Below are positions 6,361 to 64,000 of a DNA stretch of 64,000 nt, in pieces. The position numbers and the translations under genes were made by a program. Within the stretch, counting starts at the first letter, position 1. Every line of letters starts with the position of its first letter. The DNA comes from Devosia equisanguinis (lineage in GTDB: Bacteria > Pseudomonadota > Alphaproteobacteria > Rhizobiales > Devosiaceae): the NCBI RefSeq assembly GCF_900631955.1, contig NZ_UZWD01000022.1, positions 1-64,000 of the forward strand, given 5' to 3'. The notes under the pieces are model-generated. The model saw only the letters and a list, made by a program, of their open reading frames with translations, ran no database searches and was not told where the DNA came from.

Positions 6361-6400
6361 CTACTATTGGCAACGGTGCCGCACGGGGGCAGGGAACCGC

Positions 6401-62325: not shown

Positions 62326-62402
62326 TGGTAGCGGAGGAGGGATTTGAACCCCCGACACACGGATTATGATTCCGCTGCTCTAACCAACTGAGCTACTCCG
62401 CC
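62326..62402 (-). tRNA. tRNA-Met (anticodon CAT), elongator type; Ile2 possible
   Basis: 77 nt. The acceptor arms GGCGGAG and CTCCGCT pair with one G-U at the end; the D-arm is AGCTCAGTTGGTTAGAGC; the anticodon loop atcataa has CAT (plus-strand complement 62366-62368); the T-arm is GGGGGTTCAAATCCC; CCA is encoded. The CAT anticodon also occurs in the lysidine-modified isoleucine tRNA; the stem bases look more like elongator methionine. It lacks the GGG/CCC anticodon stem of the initiator. Confidence 0.93.
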
Positions 62403-62438: not shown

Positions 62439-62467
62439 TACTAAGTTTATGCGCCTTGCCGTGTCAA
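62439..62467 (-). promoter_or_regulatory. Promoter of tRNA-Met, overlapping the udgX stop
   Basis: Minus strand TTGACA (62467-62462), 17-bp spacer, TTAGTA (62444-62439). The -35 box lies across the last codons of the upstream udgX gene. Confidence 0.65.
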
Positions 62468-63927
62468 GCGCCATGCACGGCGCGAGCCGAATTTTCCAGC
62501 GCTTCGATCATCTCGCGCACCACGGCGAGATCGGCTTCGAACTTGGCACGTTCGCGCTGGCGACTTTCCACGTCTGGGATGCGCAGGAGATAGGAAGGGT
62601 GATTGGTGATAAAGAGAACGGAGCCATCCGGCAAAGTCATGGGCTGGCCGCGCATCTTGCTGATGGTGACGCTGGCCTTGCCCAGCAGGCTCTGCGCCGC
62701 AGTGGCGCCCAATGCCACGATCACCTTGGGCCGCACAAAGTCTCGCTCGAGATTGAGCCAGAATTTGCAGGCCTGCACTTCCCCACCGTCCGGGCGCTGG
62801 TGAATGCGCCGCTTGCCGCGCGGCTCGAACTTGAAGTGCTTTACGGCATTGGTGACATAAACCTTGTTGCGATCGATCCCGACTTTTTCGATGACCTCGT
62901 CGAGCACCTGACCCGCCGGGCCCACAAACGGCCTGCCCTGCAAATCCTCCTGGTCGCCGGGCTGTTCGCCGACAAACATCACCTCGGCACGCTCCGGACC
63001 TTGGCCGAACACCGCCTGGGTGGCATGTTCATAAAGTGGGCAACGCTTGCATGCCTGGACGGCTGCCCCAGCATCGCCCAGCGAATGCACACTATCCACC
63101 GGCTCGACAGTTTCGAGCTTGCGGCGCAGGTGTCGGGCAGGCGGCTGGGTGGCGGCGCGGGCGATCATCTCCTCCTCCATCGCCTTGGCGTTGCGGACGA
63201 GAGGTTCAATGAGCGCCGCTTCGGGAAGGTTGCGCCAATATTTCACCGGCATTTCGCTCTTCATCATCGCGACCTTGAGCCGGGCCGGGTTGAAAATCGA
63301 GGCATAATAGGTCTTCCAATCCTCTTCGACCGCATCTTCGGCCGGCACGTCAGTCTTCGTGCCACCCGGCCCGAAAGCGAGCCTGTCGGTATCCCACCAG
63401 GCGCTGGCATAGGGTGTGACAATGCCCCAATGCATGCCGGCAAAACGCCGGGCGAAAAATGGTGCGGTTGCCTCCAGCACATAGTGATCGGGCTCGAACC
63501 AGGCGACGAAACGCTCGGCGCCGGCATCGTTGCGCAGTTCGCGGAAGCGCACGAAAGCCTTCATCTTGTGGGCATCGCGACGCACTGCCGACGCCATGCG
63601 GGACAGGGCGCTGATATCCCGATCAGCGGCATCGGCCAGCAATTGCGGTGCTGACTGCAGTCGCCAGAGCAGGCGGTAGAGCAGCGCAAACCGCTCGGGC
63701 TCAGCATGCTGTAACACCGAGGAAGCCAGCTCGATAAAGCCCCGTGGCACCGTCCCCACCGCACCTTCGGCCACCGCCGGCAACGCGTCGTCACCGAACA
63801 GTTCCCCCACCGCGTCGCCCTGTTGCCAGACCACATCTTCCGGCGCGACACCTGCCGCGAGGAGGCGCCGGGCGTGGCTACGCCATTCCCCGAGATCATT
63901 GGGGCGCTCAAGCCGGACGCGATACAT
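62464..63927 (-). CDS. DUF4130-UdgX fusion: uracil-DNA-binding glycosylase with DUF4130 domain
   Basis: A 487-residue fusion. The N-terminal part (about 1-260) is the DUF4130-type domain (TIGR03915-like) that normally pairs with a radical-SAM protein. The C-terminal part (about 285-480) is a UdgX domain: GEQPGDQED at 320-328 (family motif A), the KRRIH loop at 372-376 whose His376 forms a covalent bond with uracil-containing DNA in MsmUdgX, and NHPSYLL near 433. Iron-sulfur cysteines C293 and C296 and C387 are present; at the fourth family-4 position there is a His in VKHFKF. The TGA of the upstream gene overlaps its ATG (TGATG). Confidence 0.93.
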   Translation of the reverse strand: MYRVRLERPNDLGEWRSHARRLLAAGVAPEDVVWQQGDAVGELFGDDALPAVAEGAVGTVPRGFIELASSVLQHAEPERFALLYRLLWRLQSAPQLLADAADRDISALSRMASAVRRDAHKMKAFVRFRELRNDAGAERFVAWFEPDHYVLEATAPFFARRFAGMHWGIVTPYASAWWDTDRLAFGPGGTKTDVPAEDAVEEDWKTYYASIFNPARLKVAMMKSEMPVKYWRNLPEAALIEPLVRNAKAMEEEMIARAATQPPARHLRRKLETVEPVDSVHSLGDAGAAVQACKRCPLYEHATQAVFGQGPERAEVMFVGEQPGDQEDLQGRPFVGPAGQVLDEVIEKVGIDRNKVYVTNAVKHFKFEPRGKRRIHQRPDGGEVQACKFWLNLERDFVRPKVIVALGATAAQSLLGKASVTISKMRGQPMTLPDGSVLFITNHPSYLLRIPDVESRQRERAKFEADLAVVREMIEALENSARAVHGA

Positions 63928-64000
63928 CAGAACAACACCAATTGCTCGGGCGGCGGCGCCAGTTTCTGGCGCAGCTTGGCGTCGTCGGTGAGCCCGCCGG
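63927..64000 (-). CDS. Upstream partner gene, C-terminal end only (probably radical-SAM repair protein)
   Basis: The minus strand has an open frame from the window's right edge ending at TGA 63929-63927, whose last 24 codons encode GGLTDDAKLRQKLAPPPEQLVLF. The stop overlaps the udgX start by one base. Known DUF4130-UdgX genes are preceded by a SplB-like radical-SAM protein (TIGR03916), and this tail fits its C-terminus, but only 24 residues are visible, so the product is inferred from context. Confidence 0.5.
   Translation of the reverse strand, partial: GGLTDDAKLRQKLAPPPEQLVLF

Follow-up and report, generated by a model that had tools for sequence, protein, structure and literature searches.

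A DUF4130-UdgX fusion gene and its radical-SAM partner in Devosia equisanguinis: a constant radical-SAM-DUF4130 pair with an optional UdgX, a LexA-type box and a candidate clamp-binding tail

Introduction

In the uracil-DNA glycosylase (UDG) UdgX, His109 forms the covalent bond with the abasic sugar, and the precise physiological role of the enzyme has been called largely unknown (PMC10359453). A two-gene operon joining a UDG group, COG1573, to COG4277 is a predicted SOS target in Bacteroidetes (PMC8565304, which cites earlier reports of its SOS control in Verrucomicrobia and Alphaproteobacteria), and DUF4130 has been described as a predicted mutagenesis-related enzyme, linked to an SplB-like radical S-adenosylmethionine (rSAM) protein and a UDG, that 'might modify thymines' (PMC3765255). 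Here we analyse an operon with the same three-way association in Devosia equisanguinis, where a gene for a DUF4130-UdgX fusion protein lies directly behind an rSAM gene at the end of the window, by which we mean the whole stretch of DNA analysed: 64,000 nucleotides, positions 1-64000 of the 179,981-base contig NZ_UZWD01000022.1 (C26). The rSAM gene was read beyond position 64000. The operon belongs to a known but functionally undefined system of three families, TIGR03914/TIGR03915/TIGR03916, to whose third family NCBIfam gives the name putative DNA modification/repair protein. The system is widespread, with TIGR03916 in 53 of 299 genomes, and the literature that we found assigns it no lesion or reaction. 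We take COG4277 to correspond to TIGR03916; SOS control of the COG1573-COG4277 operon is already in print, and so is not new as such.

On balance we favour the reading that the operon encodes an SOS-induced, clamp-tethered rSAM/DUF4130 enzyme for DNA lesions, with UdgX as an accessory that would trap uracil and abasic sites covalently; most of our doubt concerns docking on the clamp, and repair as opposed to bypass. This reading adds two things to the published picture: a concrete site of action, the replication clamp, that can be put to the test, and a lesser, accessory role for UdgX. The dispensability of UdgX shifts the search for a function from uracil to the rSAM-DUF4130 pair, and the operon in turn offers a setting for the role of UdgX. 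If correct, the clamp peptide and the LexA operator would place the system at damaged replication forks, and the peptide would be a direct handle on it, since it can be assayed and mutated.

Results and discussion

A constant rSAM-DUF4130 pair with an optional UdgX

Profile matches were judged against the curated cut-offs of the Pfam, TIGR and NCBIfam models. The minus-strand frame upstream of the fusion gene (longest open reading frame (ORF), C26 63927-65216) matched TIGR03916 at E 3.8e-167 (556.6 bits, cut-off 343.5), together with PF04055 Radical_SAM (36.2 bits, cut-off 29.5) and a helix-hairpin-helix (HhH) domain slightly below its cut-off (25.3 bits against 27). A first-pass annotation, made from the letters of the window alone, had taken an rSAM partner to be probable, and the gene read past position 64000 bears it out. 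The same annotation had described a 487-aa fusion of a DUF4130-like domain with UdgX, overlapping its upstream neighbour by a single base; both TIGR03915 and PF13566 match the N-terminal half of the protein and TIGR03914 the C-terminal half (Table 1), and the stop codon of the rSAM gene and the start codon of the fusion gene do have one base in common (TGATG). Its placing of the operon in a DNA-repair context was also judged right.

The 299 genomes, a sample from the host phylum, held TIGR03916, TIGR03915 and TIGR03914 matches over cut-off in 53, 56 and 52 cases respectively. DUF4130 was present in all 53 rSAM genomes, each time downstream of rSAM and sharing its contig and strand, with the two profile matches at most 250 bp apart in 46 of them; UdgX was found in 40 and was absent from 13. 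Within the best 80 of 587 confirmed rSAM loci from a contig collection, DUF4130 followed rSAM in every case, fused to UdgX in 69, without UdgX in 10 and as a split frame in one. None of the 10 genomes whose rSAM locus is without UdgX had a TIGR03914 match over cut-off; weaker matches reached 50-132 bits in nine, where they are probably another UDG, and 21.8 bits in one. In a quick tree built from 85 rSAM rows, of which 84 were counted (the split L080 was left out of the state counts), the presence of UdgX needs seven changes, and the well-supported branches alone force seven.

Ten loci from plasmid and phage collections stood for other phyla: five faecal scaffolds, two loci each from Bacteroidota and Clostridia, and one from Gemmatimonadota. 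Across the 13 divergent loci L130-L142, the beta-proteobacterial L137 and L138 carry the fusion, and ten (L130-L134, L136 and L139-L142: two Bacteroidota, two Clostridia, one Acinetobacter and five faecal scaffolds) have a separate DUF4130 gene after rSAM and no UDG in the locus, the DUF4130 of L136 being detected solely with a refined model. Likewise, TIGR03916 and TIGR03915 matched in the control genome of Bacteroides ihuae and TIGR03914 did not. Conversely, DUF4130 exceeded its cut-off without rSAM in three of the 299 genomes (G373, G389 and G458), and UdgX stood alone in nine genomes that have neither rSAM nor a LexA box. UdgX is optional, and rSAM-DUF4130 would be the core.

The operon can be set beside the COG1573-COG4277 operon. 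Both are two-gene operons with a uracil-DNA glycosylase COG, whereas the rSAM partner in Bacteroidota L130 and L131 is a DUF4130 protein without a UDG domain, so that the 'UDG-based base excision repair' reading given in the available part of PMC8565304 may not be valid for all Bacteroidota versions. A clamp motif goes unmentioned in that part of PMC8565304, as do both a clamp motif and the separability of UdgX in the corresponding part of PMC3765255.

A LexA-type box ahead of the rSAM gene

An exact GAACN7GAAC box, or its reverse complement GTTCN7GTTC, was found within 350 bp of the rSAM start in 106 of 117 proteobacterial loci, where 0.011 are expected per tested stretch (background in the same loci, 33 per 1,113,826 bp). 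The box lies mostly 17-50 bases ahead of the inferred rSAM start, and GTTCN7GTTC is described as the alphaproteobacterial or Caulobacter box (PMC8565304, PMC12700426, PMC9578287). In D. equisanguinis it reads GAACAAAGGATGAAC, at C26 65169-65183, directly ahead of an ATG at 65165; being outside the window, it was beyond what the window sequence could show. The strain's own lexA has two boxes of the GAACN7GAAC/GTTCN7GTTC type upstream, and we infer that LexA represses the operon in this strain.

The box also bears on gene starts. At L005:3928-5217 (minus strand) the longest rSAM ORF, of 429 aa, reads through the LexA box, and the ATG directly behind the box (C26 65165, giving 412 aa) is the likely start; automatic start calls in the TIGR03916 family may for this reason lie too far upstream.

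The distribution of the box follows the rSAM-DUF4130 unit. It is present in exact form in nine of the ten rSAM-DUF4130 loci without UdgX, and neither it nor the alternative CTGTN8ACAG occurs in any of 12 stand-alone UdgX loci. Four remnants, L175 (G250), L172 (G389), L173 (G458) and L174 (G373), have lost rSAM and retain a LexA box near the start, with a DUF4130 that is whole, shortened or nearly deleted. Because the box is found in UdgX-free loci and remnants and is absent before stand-alone UdgX, the operator appears to travel with rSAM-DUF4130. CTGTN8ACAG is the form present at both beta-proteobacterial plasmid loci that fall outside the 117.

A clamp-type peptide at the rSAM C-terminus

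The bacterial clamp-binding consensus is QL[S/D]LF, more generally QxxLF, and the C-terminus of PolC is QLSLF (PMC12309361). We compared the last 60 aa of 128 rSAM proteins (L015, at a contig end, and L141, a split frame, were left out) with those of 1477 other mechanically called ORFs of at least 200 aa from the same loci. A loose clamp pattern was present in 128 of 128 rSAM proteins and 46 of 1477 control ORFs, the QxxLF type (L or M, then F or L) in 106 and 29 respectively, and the strict QL[SD]L[FL] in 64 and one. An earlier, narrower pattern had matched 127 of 130 and missed L015, L092 (QMALAL) and L122 (QGSLF). The second motif letter is sometimes M, A or G, and the variants in the family include QLSLGF, QLILEF, QLRFDF, QLSLW and QADLF; the second piece of the split L141 ends in QLSLFDQVG.

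The D. equisanguinis tail, QLVLF, fits QxxLF. Its codons lie inside the window, yet they stand out by family comparison alone: Q425 and L426 do not vary across a 13-sequence alignment reaching down to 34% identity, in which the surrounding tail is poorly aligned, and Q407 and L410 are invariant in 68 closer rSAM proteins (67 of the 80 loci plus L143), in which the adjoining linker columns 399-406 hold 0.7-2.4 bits. The position of the motif shifts between homologues and its letters are retained. In the rSAM model the tail is coil, with a mean pLDDT of 70 at residues 401-410 and 43 at residue 411, against 92-96 just before. These features suggest that the C-terminal QLxLF peptide would dock on the beta sliding clamp. 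The peptide shares its C-terminal or near-terminal QLSLF-type form with known clamp-binding proteins such as PolC (PMC12309361), from which it differs in belonging to a radical-SAM protein and not a polymerase. Our search of the open literature found no report of a clamp motif or of clamp binding in the TIGR03916 family.

Conserved cysteines of the rSAM protein

The radical-SAM cysteines C86, C90 and C93 (CxxxCxxC) are unchanged in both the 13- and the 68-sequence sets, and four further N-terminal residues, C40, C65, H66 and C74, are unchanged in 68 of 68 and 12 of 13. They are missing only from L135, on a Gemmatirosa plasmid (Gemmatimonadota), which encodes a TIGR03916-like rSAM-HhH protein (302.7 bits, below the cut-off of 343.5) without the extra N-terminal cysteines; no DUF4130 was found in its 9.1-kb locus, and its tail is still QLSLW. 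L135 is possibly a sister subfamily of TIGR03916, and C40/C65/H66/C74 are a possible second metal site linked to DUF4130, a suggestion founded on this one outlier.

SplB, to which the first-pass annotation had pointed together with TIGR03916 as a profile for the upstream frame, fared otherwise than TIGR03916: no SplB model matched at E 0.1 or better, and SplB was not among the sequence matches of the rSAM partner. It was also not among the fold matches listed for the rSAM model, a kind of list that excludes nothing; the best of these were HydE, lipoyl synthase and biotin synthase (Z about 16-17), that is, the general radical-SAM barrel. No specific likeness to SplB was thus seen in the sequence searches. 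The two proteins share membership of the radical-SAM superfamily, and in several species SplB is under SOS control (PMC8565304), whereas the rSAM protein described here has three extra conserved N-terminal cysteines and an HhH domain.

The UdgX half

Family 4 UDGs have a four-cysteine iron-sulfur (Fe-S) site. Their motif A is GE(A/G)PG (PMC10359453). The UdgX half departs from this family in both respects, with His364 (KHFKF) at the third cysteine position, as in Mycobacterium smegmatis UdgX (MsmUdgX) in the alignment, and GEQPG in place of GE(A/G)PG; it scores above the cut-off of TIGR00758 (147.4 against 125.3) and below that of NF040953 (140.9 against 250). It has the characters of UdgX instead: GEQPG, KRRIH with the cross-linking His, an HPSxLLR-type motif B and alignment with 6AJO. 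By phmmer it matches MsmUdgX at E 5.9e-49, and the model of the fusion protein (mean pLDDT 90.9, pTM 0.58) superposes on the MsmUdgX structures 6AJO and 6IOD over 197-204 residues (Z 28.8-30.5, rmsd 1.5-3.3). The 50 PDB matches listed by Foldseek for this model belong by description to the UDG superfamily, except 9qhs, a family-A polymerase, and 3ikb, an uncharacterised protein. The VIA matches listed span about residues 267-484 only, and those listed from the viral library are mostly UDGs, polymerases or proteins without a name.

The GEQPGDQED and KRRIH motifs picked out in the first-pass annotation are present, and across 62 fused UdgX sequences (the window copy and 61 of the 69 fused loci) GEQPG, R374, H376, H443, P444 and R449 are unchanged. 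Since His376 corresponds to His109 of MsmUdgX and is conserved in 62 of 62, covalent trapping of uracil-DNA by the fused UdgX is expected. The suggestion that the His at the third cysteine position might be a cluster ligand has also gained ground. The ligand pattern is Cys-Cys-His-Cys in 55 of 62, so that His364 is kept in every sequence with all three cysteines; two or three cysteines are changed and the His kept in three (L085, L090 and L091), and all four positions are changed in four (L029, L047, L086 and L097). His364 disappears only from sequences that lack all three cysteines, which supports it as a ligand; with L047, L086 and L097 near one another on the tree, the four losses amount to about two events. 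These four are apparently cluster-free UdgX proteins that still have motif A and, in the R-loop, the Arg and the His. MsmUdgX and the copy described here thus have in common GEQPG, KRRIH with its cross-linking His and the Cys-Cys-His-Cys positions; the latter differs in being fused behind DUF4130, in a LexA-boxed operon with rSAM.

Proposed mechanism and alternatives

Our reading is built on family memberships, gene order, the rSAM-DUF4130 pairing, the optional UdgX, the operator, the tail motif and the catalytic residues, all taken from sequence. LexA would repress the operon through the GAACN7GAAC operator just ahead of the rSAM start. The rSAM protein would bind DNA through its HhH domain and dock on the beta sliding clamp by its C-terminal QLxLF peptide, and its 5'-deoxyadenosyl radical would act on a damaged base, with DUF4130 as constant partner. 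UdgX would excise uracil, stay covalently on the abasic site and so shield uracil and abasic sites at the same stalled forks, the core rSAM-DUF4130 reaction being independent of it. Extended to the whole of TIGR03916, the reading becomes more tentative, and we hold with slightly more doubt than belief that the family is an SOS-induced, clamp-tethered radical-SAM class in which DUF4130 is obligate (perhaps recognising damage), UdgX is a later proteobacterial shield of abasic sites and a DUF4130-dependent second metal site may exist.

Several observations weigh against this reading. The strain's own recA has no exact box upstream, and an exact box is absent from 11 of the 117 loci: L126 and L129 have CTGTN8ACAG instead, L060, L064 and L092 have a one-mismatch box 52-61 bases up, L103 has just a one-mismatch match 359 bases up, and L083, L098, L102, L107 and L122 have none of the box forms. 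Ahead of rSAM in the Bacteroidota, Clostridia, Gemmatimonadota and Acinetobacter loci, none of the box patterns searched for turned up, and neither of the two Bacteroidetes box types was found before L130, L131 or L139 (the upstream stretch of L139 is short). As to the tail, the loose pattern was broadened once the sequences were known, which makes the loose count post hoc; only half of the rSAM proteins match the strict form, which QLVLF of the strain itself fails; the 128 proteins are not independent, because 80 of them are nearest relatives from one collection; many of the 1477 mechanical control ORFs are surely not genes; and the rSAM tail is not strongly disordered in the model. Finally, the reaction could be DNA modification and not repair.

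A standing modification, in which the system installs a modified base and UdgX edits mistakes, would suit the NCBIfam name of TIGR03916. We nevertheless think it very unlikely: a LexA-type operator suits damage-induced repair better than standing modification, PADLOC gave no match, and a pattern scan of the viral collection gave two confirmed relatives. The first-pass annotation had proposed a different division of labour, with UdgX marking the site on which the rSAM enzyme acts. Such a model, in which UdgX would find and covalently mark uracil or abasic sites and rSAM would act on the mark or resolve the cross-link, is favoured by the 69 of 80 loci in which UdgX is both fused and linked in an operon to rSAM-DUF4130, and by the strong co-occurrence (40 of the 53 rSAM genomes). 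As a general mechanism, however, it is not supported: 10 of the 80 loci lack UdgX when all 80 have DUF4130, the pair is also UdgX-free in 13 of the 53 rSAM genomes and at ten more distant loci, UdgX presence changes seven times on the quick rSAM tree, and UdgX alone in nine genomes comes without rSAM or a LexA box. We regard it as quite improbable.

The two features that place our preferred reading at the fork, a LexA box and a clamp-type motif, are also features of translesion polymerases. Their joint presence here would fit a mutagenic or tolerance cassette like ImuA-ImuB-DnaE2, in which a clamp-bound rSAM protein aids bypass and UdgX caps leftover abasic sites, and DUF4130 has been called a predicted mutagenesis-related enzyme (PMC3765255). 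Such a cassette seems unlikely to us. The two genes here have no polymerase gene between them or as an immediate neighbour, and the inserts that separate rSAM from DUF4130 at four loci appear unrelated; in addition, none of the 68 rSAM sequences compared has a change in these cysteines of the radical-SAM site, which speaks for catalysis. A similar degree of doubt attaches to the idea that the QLxLF tail is a structural or partner-binding element, for example for DUF4130, and no clamp peptide. The motif is short, the organisms that conserve it are also those with DUF4130 as the partner, and the model confidence of the tail is middling and not very low; against this, the tail matches the published clamp consensus (PMC12309361), its position shifts while its letters stay, and QLSLW persists in the Gemmatimonadota locus L135, where no DUF4130 was found in 9.1 kb. 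The SOS-induced, clamp-tethered rSAM/DUF4130 enzyme with an accessory UdgX is the reading that we retain.

Features of the window and minor observations

The features of the operon and its surroundings are collected in Table 1. The closest loci in the contig scan are those of other Devosia (L023-L025, 75-87% identity), which cluster with the D. equisanguinis copy on the rSAM tree. Further LexA-type boxes in the window, at 6394, 31449 and 39395, are at chance level (background 1.9 per 64 kb), and the ORFs around 31449 and 39395 are not obviously repair genes.

Table 1. Coordinates of the operon and its motifs in the window (all on the minus strand).
Feature	Position	Strand	Basis or remark
DUF4130-UdgX fusion gene, 487 aa	62464..63927	-	ORF and profile matches
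TIGR03915 domain, constant companion of the rSAM enzyme	63217..63903	-	Residues 9-237; profile match, 211 bits (cut-off 112.25)
Pfam DUF4130 (PF13566), inside the TIGR03915 domain	63220-63699	-	Residues 77-236; profile match, 134.1 bits (cut-off 27)
TIGR03914 UdgX domain	62518..63213	-	Residues 239-470; profile match, 330.9 bits (cut-off 189.95), and MsmUdgX fold match
Motif A GEQPG, residues 320-324	62956..62970	-	62/62 fused UdgX compared
R-loop KRRIH, residues 372-376	62800..62814	-	His376 aligns with cross-linking His109 of MsmUdgX
Motif B HPSYLLR, residues 443-449	62581..62601	-	UdgX alignment
Cys293, Fe-S ligand position 1	63049..63051	-	Alignment
Cys296, Fe-S ligand position 2	63040..63042	-	Alignment
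His364, third family-4 cysteine position, candidate ligand 3	62836..62838	-	Alignment
Cys387, Fe-S ligand position 4	62767..62769	-	Alignment
TIGR03916 radical-SAM/HhH gene, 3' end only in window	63927..64000	-	Gene runs on to C26 65165
QLVLF codons, rSAM C-terminus, candidate beta-clamp-binding motif	63930..63944	-	Family comparison
tRNA-Met (cat), directly downstream of the operon	62326-62402	-	

A phage or defence origin of the system was rejected, with no PADLOC match and the two confirmed viral-collection relatives mentioned above. Ten records of the phage collection were concerned, eight labelled 'Bacteriophage sp.' from human faeces (all five of these that were inspected are marked UNVERIFIED) and two of a 240-kb 'Acinetobacter phage'. 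No archaeal homologue with a PIP box was found; the control genomes that matched TIGR03916 were those of Caulobacter vibrioides, Bacteroides ihuae and Thermotoga maritima, and that of C. vibrioides matched TIGR03915 as well. The four loci with inserts between rSAM and DUF4130 are L176, L177, L030 and L009, and the inserts were read by eye; the one in L030 (Fulvimarina, L030:7883-8524) is a deaminase-like ORF (HPE...PMCAAA, also by eye) between rSAM and DUF4130-UdgX, and its presence there is likely due to chance. The rSAM gene was matched on 158 plasmid records, of which 142 were typed as non-mobilizable, 58 of them from Phaeobacter.

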